Assembly (NCBI GenBank): GCA_024743195.1
Contig: JANSXE010000010.1
Location: forward strand, 62,001 to 126,000
Direction: 5' to 3'
Source: Alphaproteobacteria bacterium
GTDB taxonomy: Bacteria > Pseudomonadota > Alphaproteobacteria > UBA8366 > Aestuariispiraceae
DNA length: 64,000 nt
The position numbers were made by a program, and so were the translations under genes. Below, piece after piece: positions 55,915 through 64,000 of the stretch; the stretch's first letter is position 1, and every line of letters starts with the position of its first letter. The notes under the pieces are model-generated. The model saw only the letters and a list, made by a program, of their open reading frames with translations, had not been told where the DNA came from and searched no databases.

Positions 55915-57123
55915 ATGGAACAGAACGACGAGACCGTGACGCAGCCGCTCGAGCGCCTGGACGAGGTGGGGTCCTTCGCCGACTTCCTGGCGCTGGTCGT
56001 CGACGTCTGGAACCACGGGCTCTTCGGGATCGATCTCGGCCGCATCCTGATCGCGGTCGGGATCTTTTTCCTGTTCCTGCTGCTGCGGCGGCTCTTCACC
56101 TGGGCGGTCCTGGGCCGGCTCGAGCGCTACGCGGCGCGCAGCGACACGCGGCTCGACGACAAGACGGTGCAGGCGCTGCGGCCGCCGGTGCGTTTCGTGC
56201 CGGTGGTCATGGGCGCCTTCTTCGCGCTCGGCTATCTGAACCTGACCGGCGGGGCGGCGGCCTTTGCGGACAATCTGGTCCGCTCGCTGGTCATCTTCAC
56301 GCTGTTCTGGAGCTTCTTCCGGCTTGTCGATCCGCTGTCCTTCCTGCTGGGACGGCTGGAGCGCATCTTCACCAGCGCCATGGTCGACTGGCTGGTGAAG
56401 GCGATCAAGGCGCTGATCGCCTTCCTCGGCGCCGCCACCGTGCTGGAGGTCTGGGGCATCGAGATCGGGCCGATCCTGGCCGGTCTCGGCCTGTTCGGCG
56501 TGGCGGTCGCGCTCGGCGCGCAGGATCTGTTCAAGAATCTGATCGCCGGCATCCTGATCCTGGTGGAGCGGCGCTTCGCCATCGGCGACTGGATCCGGGT
56601 CGACGGGGTGGTCGAGGGGACGGTCGAATCGATCGGCTTCCGCTCGACCTTCATCCGGCGGTTCGACAAGGCCCCGGTCTTCGTGCCGAACGCCCAGCTC
56701 TCCGACAGCGCGATCACCAATTTCAGCCGCATGACCTATCGGCGGATCTATTGGATGATCGGGGTCGAATACCGCACCAGCATCGAGCAGCTGCGCCGCA
56801 TCCGCGACCGGATCGAAGCCTATATCCGCGAGAACGACGAGTACGTCGATCCGGCGCTGGCCGCCACCTTCGTGCGCATCGACAAGTTCTCCGACAGCTC
56901 GATCGACATCATGCTCTACTGCTTCACCAAGACCACCAACTGGGGCGAGTGGCTGGCGATCAAGGAGCGCCTCGCGCTCGCCGTGAAGGAGATCGTCGAA
57001 GGCGAGGGCGCCGGCTTCGCCTTCCCCTCGACCTCGCTCTATGTCGAAAGCCTGCCGGAGGATCGTCCGGAGCCCTTCACGCCGCCGGCTGAACCGGGCA
57101 AGCCGGAGCCCAGGGAGGGCTGA
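55915..57123 (+). CDS. MscS-family mechanosensitive ion channel
   Basis: A 402-residue inner-membrane channel with about five hydrophobic segments followed by the pore helix and cytoplasmic vestibule. The TM3/pore block reads LAGLGLFGVAVALGAQDLFKNLIAGILIL, the beta domain ERRFAIGDWIRVDGVVEGTV follows, and the conserved FVPNAQLSDSAITNFSRM is present. Such channels open under membrane tension and protect cells from osmotic downshock. It lies 31 bp after mutY in the same direction. Confidence 0.92.
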   Translation: MEQNDETVTQPLERLDEVGSFADFLALVVDVWNHGLFGIDLGRILIAVGIFFLFLLLRRLFTWAVLGRLERYAARSDTRLDDKTVQALRPPVRFVPVVMGAFFALGYLNLTGGAAAFADNLVRSLVIFTLFWSFFRLVDPLSFLLGRLERIFTSAMVDWLVKAIKALIAFLGAATVLEVWGIEIGPILAGLGLFGVAVALGAQDLFKNLIAGILILVERRFAIGDWIRVDGVVEGTVESIGFRSTFIRRFDKAPVFVPNAQLSDSAITNFSRMTYRRIYWMIGVEYRTSIEQLRRIRDRIEAYIRENDEYVDPALAATFVRIDKFSDSSIDIMLYCFTKTTNWGEWLAIKERLALAVKEIVEGEGAGFAFPSTSLYVESLPEDRPEPFTPPAEPGKPEPREG

Positions 57124-57290: not shown

Positions 57291-57959
57291 TCAGTCGTTG
57301 TCGCTGAGGCCCGCGCCGGCGCCGGCGAGGCGCGATTCGTCGCTGGCCGGCACATAGGTGCGATGCGCGAAACGGGCGAGCGTCTCCCACGCGTCGTCCG
57401 GCGCCTCGAAGCCCGCGGCGCCCGGCGCCGCACGCGCCGCCGCGACAGGCCGGTCGAGCGGACGGAGGCGCGCGCTCGCCTCCGCCGGCGCCGCGGCGAG
57501 CGCGGCCGCGTCGTCCGGGCCGTCGGGCCCGACCCGGATTTCCCAGCCGTCCAGCGAGAGCGCGATCGCGCCGCTCCGCTGGTCGGCCGCGCGCGCCAGG
57601 AAGGGAAGCAGGAGCAGCGGCTGGGCGACCCGCTCCAGCGTCAGGGAGAGCCCGGCCGCCGGATCGCCGGCGCGATCGGCCAACGCGGCGCCGCAGGCGA
57701 TGGGGCACAGCCGTTCGCCCGCCGCGCGCCAGCGCAGCGCGCCGTCCGCCGCCGTCTCCTCCTGCGGGCGCACAACCTGATAGGGAAGGCCGTCCTGGGC
57801 GTCGAGCAGCGCGGCCAGGGACGGCAGGGCCGGCAGGCCGCGCGCGGCGAGCCAGCGGGCGGCCTTGCCCGCCTCCTCCGCCAACCCCCAGCTCATCCCG
57901 GCGCCGCGCGCCGCCATGCGCGCCAGCGCCTCGATCTCGTTCAGCGATGCGGTCGGCAT
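57291..57959 (-). CDS. DUF3726-family protein
   Basis: A 222-residue cytoplasmic protein recognised as DUF3726 by its start: ASLNEIEALARMAARGAGMS followed by WGLAEEAGKAARWLAARGLP. The remainder is Ala-rich with few conserved motifs. It is the last gene of an operon that runs aldehyde dehydrogenase, M19-like protein, BCCT carrier, the 570-residue protein and this one; the gap to the preceding gene is only 13 bp. The family has no established function; context suggests a role in betaine or amino-acid-derivative use. Confidence 0.75.
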   Translation of the reverse strand: MPTASLNEIEALARMAARGAGMSWGLAEEAGKAARWLAARGLPALPSLAALLDAQDGLPYQVVRPQEETAADGALRWRAAGERLCPIACGAALADRAGDPAAGLSLTLERVAQPLLLLPFLARAADQRSGAIALSLDGWEIRVGPDGPDDAAALAAAPAEASARLRPLDRPVAAARAAPGAAGFEAPDDAWETLARFAHRTYVPASDESRLAGAGAGLSDND

Positions 57960-57972
57960 CGGCGGCGCTCCC

Positions 57973-59685
57973 TCACCCGAGCAGCGGATAGGCCCAGTCG
58001 TCGGCCGGCGCCGCCGTCAGCTCGTGCGGATAGGGCGCGTCCTGGAACATGGTGATGCGCACCCAGCGGTCGGAGCGCGGGTCGAAGCGCGTCGCGCCGA
58101 AGAAGCTCAGCTTGCAGCGCAGGAGGTCGATCGGCAGCAGCGCCGCGCCGATCAGATTGTCCCGGATCTCGGCGTAGGCGTGCGCGGCCGTCAGCTGCGC
58201 CCGGCGCACCGCGTGGCGATGCTCCGGCCGCTCCAACAGGAAGCGGGCGACCGGCTCGTCCTCGGGCCGGTCGGCCAGCGCGGCGTGCAGCGCGGCGACG
58301 TCGCGGCCGACGGCGAGCGGCTGCTCCAGCTCCGCCCCCGGCTCCTCCGCCCGCCGGCCGAGGCGCGGCTCCAGCTTCTCCTCCGAGACGTACCAGAAAT
58401 GGGCCGAGCCTTCTGGCGCATCGTAATCGGCCTTGAGCGCCCAGGCGTAGCGCGCCGCCAGATCGGCGCGCAGCGCGCCGCAGGATTGCGCGCCGTCGAT
58501 CCGGAAGACCGCCTCTTCATCGGCCGCCATCTCTCGGGTCAGGTCGTCGACCAGCGACCCATGCGGCTCGATCGCAAGGCTGACCAGAAGCTCCTGGCCC
58601 TCGAGCGTCAGGGCGTCCTCGCTCCAGCGGATCAGCGCGTCCCAGGGCGCGTCGGCGTCGAGCGCGCCGTCGTCGATCCGCGCGCTCAGCCGGTCCAGAT
58701 CGGCGCGCAGCGCCTCGATCCGCGCCTGCTGGCGGGCGTCGACGGTGCGCCATTCCTGCGCGCCGCGCCGGGCGCGCGCCAGCATCGTGCGGAACAGCGC
58801 CTGCGCCGCCGGCTCGGCCGTCGGCAGCGCGCGCACGCGGGCGAGCGCCGTCTCCCGCGCCGCGATCCAGCGATGCAGCAACAATGGGTGCGTCACCAGA
58901 AAAGGCGCCATGCCGAGCCCGGTCGAATTGCCGACGCCCAGGCGCCGGCGCAGCACGGGGTCGAGGTCGACCGCGGTCTCCGGCGCCCGGGCGCGGGCCA
59001 GATGCTCGGCCAGATCGGCGGTGAAGGCGCGGATCAGCCAGACCGCCAGCATCTCCGCCCGGAAGGGCCCGGACAGCTCGTCCCGGTCCGCCACCCGCTC
59101 CCGGTCGGCCAGGCCGAACTTGCCGTTGCCGTAGACGGCCGTGGTGCGCATCAGATAGCCGACCGACTCGATCTCAGCCGCGTCCGGTTGGCGGCCCTCG
59201 GCGAGACGCCCGACCACATGCTCGAACAATCGGACCGAACGGTTGGCGCGGCTCAGCACCAGCTCCCGGGCGCTGACGCGGCCGGCCTCCTGCTTGGGCA
59301 CGTTGGCGGCGAGGCGGGCGACGTCCGCCTCCGTCGGCTCTCCGTCGACCAGCGCGAACGTGGCGTCCCAGGCTTCCGCGATCACCCGGTCGGAGCGCGC
59401 CTCCGCCGGCAGATCGTGCGCGAAGCAGACAAGGCTGTAGGCGCGACCCTCGGGCGCGCGGGCGCGGTAGACCGCGACGCCGACCCCCTTGGCGTCGATC
59501 CGCCAGACCGGCCGGTCGAAGCGCCAGGCGTCGCGCTTCAGCCGGCGCAGCAGCGCGCGCATGAAGCTGAGCCGCGTCTGATGGAAGGCGCCCAGCCGGG
59601 CGAGCCGCATCACCTGATCCGGAGACCTGAGCGCAACGGGTCCGGCGCTCGCGTCGCGTGGCGGTAGATCCCTATCCGTTCTCAT
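57973..59685 (-). CDS. Large protein of unknown family in a betaine-type operon
   Basis: I do not recognise this 570-residue protein. It is soluble, without signal or membrane segments. It has notable conserved-looking blocks: LGAFHQTRLSFMRALLRRLK at about 31-50, WRFDRPVWRIDAKGVGVAVY, SLVCFAHDLPAEARSDRVIAE, a central VGNSTGLGMAPFLVTHPLLLHRW near 268-290, and a C-terminal LLRCKLSFFGATRFDPRSDRWVRI. The frame is intact and codon use matches neighbours. It lies 86 bp after the BCCT gene and 13 bp before DUF3726, so it is part of that operon. It could be an enzyme or an assembly factor. Confidence 0.75.
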   Translation of the reverse strand: MRTDRDLPPRDASAGPVALRSPDQVMRLARLGAFHQTRLSFMRALLRRLKRDAWRFDRPVWRIDAKGVGVAVYRARAPEGRAYSLVCFAHDLPAEARSDRVIAEAWDATFALVDGEPTEADVARLAANVPKQEAGRVSARELVLSRANRSVRLFEHVVGRLAEGRQPDAAEIESVGYLMRTTAVYGNGKFGLADRERVADRDELSGPFRAEMLAVWLIRAFTADLAEHLARARAPETAVDLDPVLRRRLGVGNSTGLGMAPFLVTHPLLLHRWIAARETALARVRALPTAEPAAQALFRTMLARARRGAQEWRTVDARQQARIEALRADLDRLSARIDDGALDADAPWDALIRWSEDALTLEGQELLVSLAIEPHGSLVDDLTREMAADEEAVFRIDGAQSCGALRADLAARYAWALKADYDAPEGSAHFWYVSEEKLEPRLGRRAEEPGAELEQPLAVGRDVAALHAALADRPEDEPVARFLLERPEHRHAVRRAQLTAAHAYAEIRDNLIGAALLPIDLLRCKLSFFGATRFDPRSDRWVRITMFQDAPYPHELTAAPADDWAYPLLG

Positions 59686-59771
59686 GCCCTCATCCTCCCC
59701 GATGGCGGGGGCTCCCAGAGCCCGATGGTGGCCCGACGCGCGCGCCCCTGGCAACCGCAGAAACCGTGCGG

Positions 59772-61340
59772 CTACTCCGCCGCCTCGGCCGCCAGGCGCC
59801 GCTCGCGGCCGAGCGCCAGGACGATCCGGGCGGCGTCCCAGAGGCTGGGAAGCAGCACCAGCGAGACCGGAACGGCCGTCACCACGATAAAGCTCTGCAG
59901 CTTGGAGATCCCGCCCGCGCCGAGCGATATCAGGATCAGCGCCATGGCGCCCATCGCCACGCCCCAGAAGACGCGCACCGGGGTGGAACTGCGATCCTCC
60001 TCCGACATGGCGACCGAGATGACGTAGGTCATCGAATCGCCGGTCGTGGCGACGAAGATCGTCGTCAGGATCAGGAACAGCACCGAGACCAGGAAGCCGA
60101 GCGGCAGGTTCTGGGTGATCGCCAGCAGCGCCGCCGGCAGGTTGAAGCCCTCGAAAGCGGTCGAGACCGCGCCGGGGGCCGCCAGTTCGAAGGAGACGCC
60201 GGTCCCGCCGACGATGCTGAACCAGAAATTGGTGACCAGCGGCGCGACGATCGAGAGCATGATGATGATGGCCCGCACCGAGCGTCCGCGGGACACCCGG
60301 GCGATGAACATCGCCATCAGCGGCCCGTAGCCCAGGAACCAGCCCCAGAAGAATACGGTCCACCAGCCGAGCCAGCCCGGATCGCCGAACAGCCCCGCCT
60401 CGCCGCGGAACAGCGCCATCGGGAAGAAGTTCGCGACATAGGTGGCGAGCCCGCCGAAGAAGGCCTCCAGGATGAAGAGGGTCGGCCCCGCGATCAGCAT
60501 GAAGGCCAGCAGCAGGAAGGCCAGAACGACGTTGACGCGGCTCAGGAACTGGATGCCGCGCGAGATTCCGGTGACGGCCGAGATCGTGTAGAGCGCGACC
60601 AGTCCCGCAATCACCGCGGCCTGCGTCGCGAAGCCGTTCGGGATTCCGAACAGCGCGTCCAGCCCGTAGGCGACCTGCAGCCCCAGGAAGCCGATCGGCC
60701 CCACCGTGCCGGCGACGACCGCGACGATGCAGGCGGCGTCGGCGATCCAGCCGATCGGCCCCTCGATCGCATGGCGGCCGAAGATCGGATAGAGCAGCGT
60801 GCGCGGCGCGAGCGGCAGACCCTTGTCGTAGTGGTAGTGCATCAGCATCACCGCCGTCAGCGACCCGAGGATCGCCCAGGCCAGGAAGCCCCAATGCATG
60901 AAGCTCTGCGCCATCGCGGGGAAGGCGGCGGCCGGCGTCTTGCCTTCGACCCCGTAGAGCGGCGGCGGCGAGAGGAAATGCGCCATCGGCTCCCCGGCCG
61001 CCCAGAACACGCCGCCGCCTGCGAGCAGCGTGCACATGATCATCGAGCCCCACTGGAAATGCGTGAATTCGGGCGTCTCCCGCCCGCCGAGGCGCGCCTT
61101 GGCGCCGGGCAGCACGCAGATCGCGATCCCGATCAGGAAGGTCGCCAGCAGCAGCGCCTGCCAATAGAGGCCGAAGTAGCGCGCCGCCCAGCCGAAGGCC
61201 GCGTCGACCAGGCCGCTCAGCAACTCCAGATCGATCAGCGCGGTCGTGCAGAAGGCCAGGATGAAGCCGCCGGTCAGGATGAACAGCGGCGCATTGATGT
61301 GGCCGACATCGAGGCCTTTGCCGGTGGATTTCTCGGACAT
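59772..61340 (-). CDS. BCCT-family transporter
   Basis: A 522-residue inner-membrane carrier of the betaine/carnitine/choline group, with about twelve hydrophobic segments. The family core is seen in FQWGSMIMCTLLAGGGVFWAAGEP, where TLLAGGGVFWAAGEP resembles the usual glycine-rich stretch, and in the eighth-helix block WWTVFFWGWFLGYGPLMAMF followed by IARVSRGRSVR. In BetP the substrate box has Trp at three places in WAWWISW; here two of these are Phe and Tyr. ATG 61340 is used. It probably imports a betaine or related quaternary or zwitterionic amine. Confidence 0.9.
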   Translation of the reverse strand: MSEKSTGKGLDVGHINAPLFILTGGFILAFCTTALIDLELLSGLVDAAFGWAARYFGLYWQALLLATFLIGIAICVLPGAKARLGGRETPEFTHFQWGSMIMCTLLAGGGVFWAAGEPMAHFLSPPPLYGVEGKTPAAAFPAMAQSFMHWGFLAWAILGSLTAVMLMHYHYDKGLPLAPRTLLYPIFGRHAIEGPIGWIADAACIVAVVAGTVGPIGFLGLQVAYGLDALFGIPNGFATQAAVIAGLVALYTISAVTGISRGIQFLSRVNVVLAFLLLAFMLIAGPTLFILEAFFGGLATYVANFFPMALFRGEAGLFGDPGWLGWWTVFFWGWFLGYGPLMAMFIARVSRGRSVRAIIIMLSIVAPLVTNFWFSIVGGTGVSFELAAPGAVSTAFEGFNLPAALLAITQNLPLGFLVSVLFLILTTIFVATTGDSMTYVISVAMSEEDRSSTPVRVFWGVAMGAMALILISLGAGGISKLQSFIVVTAVPVSLVLLPSLWDAARIVLALGRERRLAAEAAE

Positions 61341-61468
61341 GATGGGTCCTCTCCCCGCGTCGGGACGCCGCGCCGTCGCGTCGGCCGTCCCGGATTCCGA
61401 AGGCCCCGCCGATCTTTCGGTTCGGGGCGGCGTGTCTTTTGGCCCGGCCGGTCCGTGCGGGACGCGCC

Positions 61469-62482
61469 CTAGCGGCTGGCGCCTAACGGGGGGACGGGCG
61501 GGAAGCTGTTCTCGAAGAAGGCGAGCCAGTTGCCGCCGATCACGCCGGCCACGTCCTCGGCCGAGAAGCCGGCGACGCGCAGGCCCTTCTCGAGGGTCGG
61601 GAAATCGCGGTTGTCGCGGAACCAGTCCGGCTGTTTGGGGAAGCCCGGGTTCGCCTTCGAGCCTTCGCCGTAGTCCACGCCCTTGGTCCAGCGGCCGGAG
61701 CGCATCCACTCCACCACGCTGTCCGGCTGGTCCTGGACCAGGTCGCTGCCGATCCCGATATGCTTCGGCCCCATCAGGTCGGCCGTCCGGGCCGCCATGT
61801 CGCAGAAGCTCTGCAGCGTGCAGCCGCTTCCGTCCTGCAGATGATGCGGATAGAGCGAGAAGCCGAGCATCCCGCCGGACCGGCCCAGCTCGCGCAGCAC
61901 GTCGTCCGACTTGTTGCGCAGCGCCGGGCGCCAGAAGGCCGGGTTGGCGTGGGTGATCGCGATCGGCCGCTCGGACAGCTCGATCGCCTCCAGCGTCGAC
62001 CGCTCGGCCGAATGCGACATGTCGATCACCAGCCCGACCCGGTTCATCTCGCGGATCACCTCGCGGCCCATGCGCGTGATCCCCGGATCTTCCGCCTCGT
62101 AGCAGCCGGTCGCCAGCAGCGACTGGTTGTTGTAGCTGAGCTGCATGAAGCGCGCGCCCAGCCGATGCAGGATTTCGACCAGCCCGATGTCGTCCTCGAT
62201 CGGGCTGCAGTTCTGGAACCCGAAGAAGATCGCGGTGCGGTCGGTCCTATAGGCCTCGCGCACATCCTCGGCCCAATAGCCGGGCATGATCAGGTCGGCG
62301 TGCCGCTCGAAGCGGCGGTTCCATTCCTCGAAGCGCGCGACGGTCTCGCGGAACAGCTCGTGATAGGCGATGGTGACGTGCACCGCGTCGACGCCGCCCT
62401 TGCGCATCTGGCGGAAGATCTTCTCCGACCAGTTGGCGTATTGCAGGCCGTCGATGCGGATCGGGCGTTGCATCGCGCTCAC
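61469..62482 (-). CDS. M19 membrane-dipeptidase family protein with altered metal site
   Basis: A 337-residue protein of the renal/membrane dipeptidase (M19) family, recognised by GREVIREMNRVGLVIDMSHSA, RPIAITHANP and KHIGIGSDLVQ. The N-terminal HXD zinc motif of active enzymes (DGHND) reads D11-GLQY here, and the bridging Glu region reads FQN near residue 90. His157 and His178 are kept. It resembles the dipeptidase-like protein beside the dimethylglycine dehydrogenase genes of Pseudomonas (PA5396 group). It overlaps the aldehyde dehydrogenase by 4 bases. It probably does not cut peptides. Confidence 0.85.
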   Translation of the reverse strand: MSAMQRPIRIDGLQYANWSEKIFRQMRKGGVDAVHVTIAYHELFRETVARFEEWNRRFERHADLIMPGYWAEDVREAYRTDRTAIFFGFQNCSPIEDDIGLVEILHRLGARFMQLSYNNQSLLATGCYEAEDPGITRMGREVIREMNRVGLVIDMSHSAERSTLEAIELSERPIAITHANPAFWRPALRNKSDDVLRELGRSGGMLGFSLYPHHLQDGSGCTLQSFCDMAARTADLMGPKHIGIGSDLVQDQPDSVVEWMRSGRWTKGVDYGEGSKANPGFPKQPDWFRDNRDFPTLEKGLRVAGFSAEDVAGVIGGNWLAFFENSFPPVPPLGASR

Positions 62483-63933
62483 GCCGGCGTTCCGGCCGCG
62501 ATATAGGCCGTCTTGACGCTGGTGTAGAACTCTTGCGCGTAGCGGCCCTGCTCGCGCGGACCGAAGGAGCTGTCGCCGCGCCCGCCGAAGGGCACGTGAT
62601 AGTCGGTGCCGGCCGTGGGCAGGTTCACCATCACGCAGCCGGTCCTGGCGTTGCGCCGGAAGTGCGTCGCGCGGGCGAGCGAGCGGGTCACGATCCCCGC
62701 GGTCAGACCGAAGCGGGTGTCGTTCGCGGCCGCCAGCGCCTCCTCGTAGGAGCCGATCTTGATCACGCAGGCGATGGGGCCGAACATCTCCTCGCGGTTG
62801 ACGCGCATGGCGTTGGTGGTGTTCGCGAACAGCGCCGGCGCCTGATAGTAACCCTCCTGGGCGAGGGCGAGCCGCTCGCCGCCGCAGATGTGCTCGGCGC
62901 CCTCCTGCTTCGCCAGCTCGATATAGGCGAGGTTGGAGGCCAGTTGCCCCTCGCTCACGACCGGGCCCATCTGAACCCCCTCCGCCAGCGCGGGACCGAC
63001 CTTGAGCGCCTGCGCGGCCGCCGCGGTCTTCTCGACGAAGGCGTCATGCACCGCCTCATGCACGATCAGGCGCGACGAGGCCGTGCATTTCTGCCCGGTC
63101 CCGCCATAGGCCCCGCCGACGGCGAGGCTGACGGCCAGATCCAGATCCGCGTCGTCCATCACCACGAGCGGGTTCTTGGAGCCCATCTCCATCTGCAGCT
63201 TGGTGCGGTTGACCGCCGCGGCGGCCGCAATCGTCCGCCCCACCTCGACCGAGCCGGTGAAGCTGACGGCGTCGACGCCCTCGCTCTCGATCAGGGTCTG
63301 GCCGACGGAGCCGCCGGGCCCCATCACCAGATTGAACAACCCCGCCGGGATTTGCGGCTGGCGCGAGACGATCTCGGCCAGCGACCAGGCGCTGGCCGGC
63401 GTCAGGTTCGCCGGCTTCCAGACCACCGCGTTGCCGAAGGCCAGCGCCGGCGCGATCTTCCAGACCGCCGTCGCCATCGGGAAGTTCCAGGGGCTGATCA
63501 CCGCGACGACGCCCACCGGCTCGCGCCGCACGTCGATCTCCACGCCCGGGCGCACGCTGTCGGCCGTATCGCCGATCTGGCGCAGAACCTCGGCGGCGTA
63601 ATAGGTGAAGAACTGGCCGGCCCGGTAGACCTCGCCCTTGCCTTCGGCGAAGGGTTTGCCCTCTTCGCGCGAGAGCTGGCGGCCCAGCTCCTCGGCCCGC
63701 GCCTTCAATTCCTCGCCGATCGCCATCAGCGCCGTGTAGCGATCCTCCAACCCGGTCGCGGCCCATTTGATCTGGGCGGCGCGGGCCGCCTCCACGGCGC
63801 GCGCGGTCTGCGCCGCATCCGCCTGGGCGAAGAGGCCCAGGCTGTCGCTCAGGTCGGAGGGATTGCGGTTCTCGACCGCGTCCGCGCCCGCGACCCACGC
63901 GCCGGCGATGTAGTTCTTGAAGAGGTCGGCCAT
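62479..63933 (-). CDS. Aldehyde dehydrogenase family protein
   Basis: A 484-residue NAD(P)-dependent enzyme that oxidises an aldehyde to an acid. The catalytic Cys lies in GGTGQKCTASSRLIVHE and the general base Glu in LQMEMGSKNPLVVMDDADL; the cofactor motif SFTGSVEVGRTI and the PWNFP motif are intact. The sequence is closest in style to ketoglutarate-semialdehyde and related dehydrogenases rather than BetB. ATG 63933 is chosen because it begins the family's LFKNYIAGAWV. It is the first gene of the operon in the window, and its promoter is just at or beyond the right edge. Confidence 0.93.
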   Translation of the reverse strand: MADLFKNYIAGAWVAGADAVENRNPSDLSDSLGLFAQADAAQTARAVEAARAAQIKWAATGLEDRYTALMAIGEELKARAEELGRQLSREEGKPFAEGKGEVYRAGQFFTYYAAEVLRQIGDTADSVRPGVEIDVRREPVGVVAVISPWNFPMATAVWKIAPALAFGNAVVWKPANLTPASAWSLAEIVSRQPQIPAGLFNLVMGPGGSVGQTLIESEGVDAVSFTGSVEVGRTIAAAAAVNRTKLQMEMGSKNPLVVMDDADLDLAVSLAVGGAYGGTGQKCTASSRLIVHEAVHDAFVEKTAAAAQALKVGPALAEGVQMGPVVSEGQLASNLAYIELAKQEGAEHICGGERLALAQEGYYQAPALFANTTNAMRVNREEMFGPIACVIKIGSYEEALAAANDTRFGLTAGIVTRSLARATHFRRNARTGCVMVNLPTAGTDYHVPFGGRGDSSFGPREQGRYAQEFYTSVKTAYIAAGTPA

Positions 63934-64000
63934 GCCGCGCTCGGCTCCCGGTTGTCGCATGTCGCGAAGGATCTGCGAAGGCGGTGAGCCTGCAAGGCGT

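Follow-up and report, generated by a model that had tools for sequence, protein, structure and literature searches.

Which compound is broken down by a gene cluster that couples a betaine-class carrier to an aldehyde dehydrogenase, and which of its proteins takes the first chemical step? The cluster lies in a 64,000-nucleotide stretch of an alphaproteobacterial genome of 4.17 Mb (assembly GCA_024743195.1, contig JANSXE010000010.1, positions 62,001 to 126,000; hereafter the window), where an earlier note, made from the letters alone, had proposed a five-gene operon for catabolism of a betaine derivative. The operon is a real, widely conserved catabolic module, and we think it rather likely that its substrate is a cyclic or aromatic betaine with an N-methyl group, homarine (N-methylpicolinate) being the best candidate. 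The five tightly linked genes all lie on the minus strand (57291-63960) and belong to the families named earlier, four of them by Pfam match. They are listed with the adjoining regulatory gene:

62479-63960, minus strand: aldehyde dehydrogenase (ALDH), 493 amino acids, PF00171 (E 7e-152)
61469-62482, minus strand: amidohydrolase-fold homologue of peptidase family M19, 337 amino acids, GTG start, PF01244
59772-61340, minus strand: BCCT-family carrier, 522 amino acids, PF02028 (E 1e-149)
57973-59685, minus strand: protein without a Pfam family, here called LARGE, 570 amino acids
57291-57959, minus strand: DUF3726 protein, 222 amino acids, PF12525 (E 8e-21)
63961-64000, no strand: first part of the spacer between ALDH and the divergent LysR gene
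64064-65026 (L003:10064-11026), plus strand, beyond the window end: divergent LysR gene with Pfam LysR helix-turn-helix and substrate domains

Conservation of the cluster

The first 4 bp of the M19 gene are the last 4 of ALDH, and gaps of 128, 86 and 13 bp precede the BCCT, LARGE and DUF3726 genes, respectively; the likely true start of ALDH is the in-frame ATG at 63933, which is the limit used in the earlier note and agrees with homologue starts. Linkage was followed across 81 loci, comprising the window and the best 80 of the 265 LARGE relatives obtained when genome contigs were searched with LARGE alone. Genes were clustered by single linkage (40% identity, 55% length), and the resulting counts are lower bounds, with contig ends cutting several loci (L022 ends too early for DUF3726). 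Co-occurrence in this set shows the linkage claimed in the earlier note to be conserved: DUF3726 is present in 80 of the 81 loci by BLAST (74 by gene clustering), M19 in 66 and ALDH in 48. The strand of LARGE is shared by 74/74 DUF3726, 66/66 M19, 46/49 ALDH and 15/15 operon-type BCCT genes.

The proposed unit of five genes was correct as to their linkage and too narrow as to extent. The LysR cluster (35/81 loci; opposite strand in 34/35 genes), a cluster of type 2 malate/lactate dehydrogenases (Ldh_2; 39/81 loci, close orthologues being mixed with a divergent group near 40%) and sometimes the genes of N-methylglutamate dehydrogenase (mgd) belong to the module as well. Hosts of LARGE loci include Roseobacter-group genera, SAR116, Kiloniella, Rhizobiaceae, Leucothrix and other gammaproteobacterial records. 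LARGE is also found, at 45-46% identity, in four small genomes (1.2-1.4 Mb); the three that were read all have M19-LARGE-DUF3726, and one adds ALDH and an OpuAC-ProW-ProV type ATP-binding cassette (ABC) system.

On a 104-row LARGE tree, the ALDH context changes 16 times (shuffled mean 35.0) and the M19 context 18 times (25.5). Both contexts are thus clustered on the tree but were gained or lost repeatedly, so that LARGE-DUF3726 with M19 is the core and the remainder is modular. Among relatives of the host, an M19 orthologue (at least 67%) occurs in 6 of 14 genomes that have LARGE vs none of 45 that lack it.

Some arrangements differ from the usual one. Two remote LARGE relatives (30-34%; L144:8050-10656 and L148:7977-9773) sit on very long branches with no M19 beside LARGE, and in L144 a 37% M19 relative lies about 5 kb away, next to transporter genes. 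In L138 (genome G251), M19 (42%) is divergent from LARGE-DUF3726 instead of co-directional.

LARGE and DUF3726

LARGE and DUF3726, usually with M19, form the invariant core, which makes LARGE a possible first-step enzyme; we predict that LARGE, with DUF3726, performs or shares the first chemical step. This is in line with the earlier suggestion that an unassigned protein might do so. The reported absence of a demethylase also stands: at E≤0.01, neither Pfam nor NCBIfam places any of the five proteins in a demethylase family (for ALDH, among the best 25 of 45 NCBIfam rows). LARGE itself matches no Pfam or NCBIfam family at this threshold (the scanned copy started 5 residues past the ATG) and no PDB sequence at E≤1. 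When its AlphaFold2 model (pLDDT 88, pTM 0.90) was compared with the PDB as one whole chain, every Foldseek match had E 0.34 or higher, and no VIA row exceeded Z 4.8. Across 50 aligned rows many Arg, Asp, Glu and Trp residues are invariant, four histidines alone (His35, 90, 228 and 266) are at least 90% conserved, and no cysteine reaches that level. A heme-dependent aromatic oxygenase of the TDO/IDO type was considered for LARGE and is unsupported, no such chain appearing among the Foldseek or VIA rows, an absence that is not proof.

DUF3726 (model pLDDT 91.6, pTM 0.86) is predicted to be a shortened relative of the Ldh_2 fold. The first 27 Foldseek rows are all Ldh_2-family entries (best E 2.9e-4, prob 1.00), and VIA gives Z of 10.6-13.5 for 15 Ldh_2 entries vs 4.6 for the next, unrelated, entry; the best match (Z 13.5) aligns 193 residues with a root-mean-square deviation of 3.7. 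The model aligns over 172-198 residues with members of the family (PF02615: ureidoglycolate dehydrogenase, YiaK and the delta1-piperideine-2-carboxylate reductase 1wtj), whereas its 222 residues leave it roughly 90-140 shorter than the listed PDB chains (313-361). In sequence, PF12525 is the sole Pfam match, PF02615 is not matched, and hhalign against Ldh_2 aligns 52 N-terminal columns with a probability of just 24.6 (E 8e-4, for one comparison). The same method found nothing between LARGE and the Ldh_2 or DUF3726 profiles (probabilities 0.2).

The His of the SHG motif is catalytic in Ldh_2. S47, H48 and G49 are invariant in 22 Ldh_2 rows, and DUF3726, which has ARG opposite them across a gap in a weak alignment, apparently lacks the motif. 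As about half of the loci carry a true Ldh_2 gene alongside, DUF3726 may descend from Ldh_2 and act as a partner of LARGE, a role we consider probable. A literature search with DUF3726 as the term found no paper. A bolder proposal, which we put forward tentatively and hold to be somewhat doubtful, is that LARGE and DUF3726 are the two parts of an enzyme of a kind not yet described, able to open or dearomatise the ring of an N-methylpyridinium compound with no flavin, Rieske or known metal-oxygenase component. In that case LARGE would have an unrecognised fold, and DUF3726 would be a recycled dehydrogenase fold that serves as a non-catalytic partner.

The M19 homologue, ALDH and transporters

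The M19 homologue is a clear family member (PF01244, E 1.8e-72, 244.7 bits vs a cut-off of 26, the match beginning at profile position 31) and the sole PF01244 protein found in the host genome. Its sequence suggests that it is probably not an ordinary dipeptidase: H157 and H178 are invariant across 66 homologues, but Gln replaces the Glu ligand and the start motif deviates too, both features being shared with 2i5g, an 'amidohydrolase' that is the nearest solved chain (E 3.5e-56). The M19 homologue and 2i5g fall in the same subfamily, sharing IDGL..., GFQN and two histidine motifs. Unlike the dipeptidase GliJ, both lack the Glu of GIEG (Gln90 of GFQN in the M19 homologue), and neither has the DGH-D start motif of dipeptidases, IDGLQYANW standing at the start of the M19 homologue. 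Compared with the metal ligands of renal-dipeptidase-type enzymes, the set is incomplete, part of the site being lost. The description of this protein as a dimethylglycine-locus type was not supported: a distant M19 group (34-37%) in three relatives adjoins an aldolase-like gene, with no dimethylglycine locus visible by eye.

The best NCBIfam rows for ALDH are 2,5-dioxovalerate and alpha-ketoglutaric semialdehyde (KGSA) dehydrogenases, at 484 and 475 bits, below the curated equivalog cut-offs of 750 and 770 bits, respectively. ALDH is predicted to convert an omega-semialdehyde to the carboxylate. Nine SAR116-type loci (L046, L047, L052, L061, L065, L066, L071, L082 and L093) encode a second ALDH, 34-36% identical, on the opposite strand directly after DUF3726.

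The BCCT carrier is predicted to take up a betaine-like zwitterion, in keeping with the betaine class assigned to it earlier. The operon type occurs in 15/81 loci, with the motif MCTLLAGGGVFWAAGEP identical in 15/15; a second BCCT type occurs in 12/81, and in L136 and L139 an OpuAC-ProW-ProV type ABC system adjoins M19-LARGE. The operon transporter is interchangeable among betaine-class systems, being one of two BCCT types or a ProXWV-type ABC transporter. The host genome has another BCCT gene (L001, G000:C19:98012-99487), which outscores the operon BCCT for PF02028.

Linkage to N-methylglutamate dehydrogenase

An MgdC-type gene is found no more than about 10 kb from LARGE in 7/81 loci (L019, L020, L051, L064, L067, L079 and L089), and the genomes that L141 and L142 come from show the same proximity. 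In L019, L020, L051, L064, L079, L089, L141 and L142 the interval between mgd and the operon contains an AraC-type gene; the order in L141 is mgdABC, the AraC gene, LysR, then ALDH-M19-BCCT-LARGE-DUF3726-Ldh_2. This resembles Ruegeria pomeroyi, in which tmaR (SPO1584, AraC) is upstream of mgdABCD (SPO1585-1588) according to the available text of PMC13390433.

NCBIfam labels the mgd-type neighbours as sarcosine-oxidase-like, the delta and gamma subunits scoring below the cut-offs. The start of the B subunit separates two types: HPxLGPRD or a close variant in 16 readable loci with MgdC of at least 59%, and CPxCG or PHCG in 20 readable loci with MgdC below 58% (the start is unreadable in L051, L079, L129, L130 and L131). 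By analogy, the HP-type gene set would be MgdABCD, an assignment based on the AraC neighbour and the printed R. pomeroyi gene order rather than on direct sequence comparison. Together with the co-occurrence across genomes given below, the proximity of mgd speaks for a cyclic betaine with an N-methyl group that is broken down to N-methylglutamate.

The association of LARGE with mgd is partial in both directions. In a genome search entered with 50 of the 80 loci, 22 of 49 LARGE-holding genomes have MgdC at 60% or more. Across 337 alphaproteobacterial genomes, LARGE is found in 47, MgdB (at least 70%) in 16 and both in 9, well above expectation (Fisher p 5e-5, kinship uncorrected), so that MgdB occurs in 9/47 LARGE-positive vs 7/290 LARGE-negative genomes. 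The 47 include G168, whose LARGE-like match (G168:C43:1067-2302) is interrupted by 14 stop codons, and G148, with a remote 35% match.

Several of these observations weigh against homarine degradation through N-methylglutamate. MgdB is missing in 38 of the 47 LARGE-positive genomes and present in 7 genomes of the class without LARGE. The host genome has neither MgdC at 60% or more (best 49%) nor an Ldh_2 orthologue (best 35%), and both of its related clusters carry a CPxCG (CPWCG) delta subunit of sarcosine-oxidase type. Ldh_2 reaches at least 59% in 15/49 genomes. ALDH of at least 70% was found in just 2 of 23 genomes, and none at E≤1e-110 in 14 of them, which suggests that it is dispensable or replaced; these 23 were picked because most lack a neighbouring ALDH.

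We rejected the possibility of an mgd set elsewhere in the host genome because the two sarcosine-oxidase-like clusters there are 49% identical to MgdC and carry CPWCG. These two gene sets (L111 and L112, G000:C11:33000-49000 and 93000-109000) lie on the same host contig, L111 after a CoA-transferase-like gene. One or the other may replace Mgd in the host genus.

A proposed pathway for homarine

A ring-opened N-methyl heterocycle would fit the gene content, given three kinds of betaine-class transporter, a product near N-methylglutamate, an amidohydrolase-fold protein, an ALDH close to C5 semialdehyde enzymes and no demethylases. Homarine fits best because a role for Mgd in homarine catabolism is reported (available text of PMC13390433, citing Ferrer-Gonzalez et al. 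2026) and R. pomeroyi draws homarine down rapidly (available text of PMC12817926). In the scheme that we infer, from the substrate to the assignment and order of steps 2-5, (1) the BCCT carrier would import homarine and (2) LARGE with DUF3726 would attack and open the N-methylpyridinium ring. Next, (3) the M19 homologue could hydrolyse an amide-like C-N bond left by ring opening, for example that of an N-formyl group, releasing one ring carbon as formate; such a loss is required to get from the six backbone carbons of homarine to the five of N-methylglutamate. ALDH would then (4) oxidise the remaining C5 semialdehyde to a dicarboxylate, (5) the Ldh_2 enzyme, where present, would reduce a C=N or 2-oxo form to N-methylglutamate, and (6) MgdABCD, where present, would convert this to glutamate, with LysR controlling the operon genes. 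In the host, steps 5-6 must take another course: hydrolysis to 2-oxoglutarate and methylamine is one possibility, and use of one of the two sarcosine-oxidase-like systems is another.

The operon is probably an instance of the homarine system described in 2026. That system reportedly comprises an operon, homABCDER, in members of the Rhodobacterales and SAR116; like the module here, it belongs to marine Alphaproteobacteria, including these groups, and, as is proposed for the module here, it ends in N-methylglutamate and Mgd. It is said to have five structural genes and a regulator, comparable in number to ALDH-M19-LARGE-DUF3726-Ldh_2 with LysR in Ruegeria-type loci. The window operon differs in having BCCT and lacking Ldh_2, and its host lacks mgd. 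The homarine literature searched, in its available parts, yielded no hom gene sequences. A second precedent is the Tgn trigonelline pathway of Acinetobacter, in which an N-methylpyridinium carboxylate is opened to an N-formyl type intermediate and passed to aldehyde dehydrogenase and hydrolase steps, as proposed here; Tgn uses a flavin monooxygenase and reductase, however, and neither is among the five operon genes.

Alternative substrates and routes

The same architecture might instead serve another cyclic or N-methyl betaine (trigonelline, proline betaine, hydroxyproline betaine or an unrecognised N-methyl heterocycle), and members of the family may differ in substrate. The transporters can be assigned only to the betaine class, the architecture varies over the LARGE tree, the host has no mgd, and the 2,5-dioxovalerate/KGSA dehydrogenases nearest to ALDH also serve hydroxyproline breakdown. 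We nevertheless regard this as unlikely: proline-betaine and trigonelline routes use Rieske or flavin demethylases or monooxygenases, which the five genes lack, and the mgd neighbourhood in 7/81 loci points to N-methylglutamate.

It is improbable that released methylamine, entering the gmaS-mgs-mgd methylamine pathway, accounts for the mgd link in place of N-methylglutamate itself. Methylamine use also ends with the Mgd step (available text of PMC13390433), and the SAR116 genomes G083, G084, G089, G096 and G099 hold mgd without an Ldh_2 orthologue; however, inspection of loci by eye revealed neither gmaS nor mgs next to the operon, no genome-wide search being made.

Catabolism of a glycine-betaine or dimethylglycine derivative is very improbable. 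The BCCT carrier and the resemblance of the M19 homologue to the 2i5g subfamily would suit it, but the cluster has no gbcAB, dgcAB or sarcosine-oxidase genes, and its neighbour in other genomes is of the mgd type without CPxCG. Of the pathway first proposed, betaine-class uptake is supported and the glycine-betaine/dimethylglycine route is not, the system next to the operon in other genomes being of the mgdABCD type and not a betaine or dimethylglycine demethylase. Chance juxtaposition of separate genes, which the 128-bp and 86-bp gaps flanking BCCT and its absence from many loci might suggest, can practically be dismissed in view of the gene order and orientation that dozens of loci preserve, and is refuted for M19-LARGE-DUF3726.

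Ecological relevance and neighbouring genes

Homarine is a common osmolyte of phytoplankton and the ocean. If the cluster is a homarine module, then LARGE and DUF3726, two proteins without known function, can be tested for a part in the marine carbon and nitrogen cycles and may turn out to use new chemistry. LARGE-DUF3726 provides a gene marker across Roseobacter, SAR116, small alphaproteobacterial genomes of streamlined size and some Gammaproteobacteria. On the far side of the operon, a mechanosensitive channel gene (window 55915-57123, plus strand) is convergent with it.

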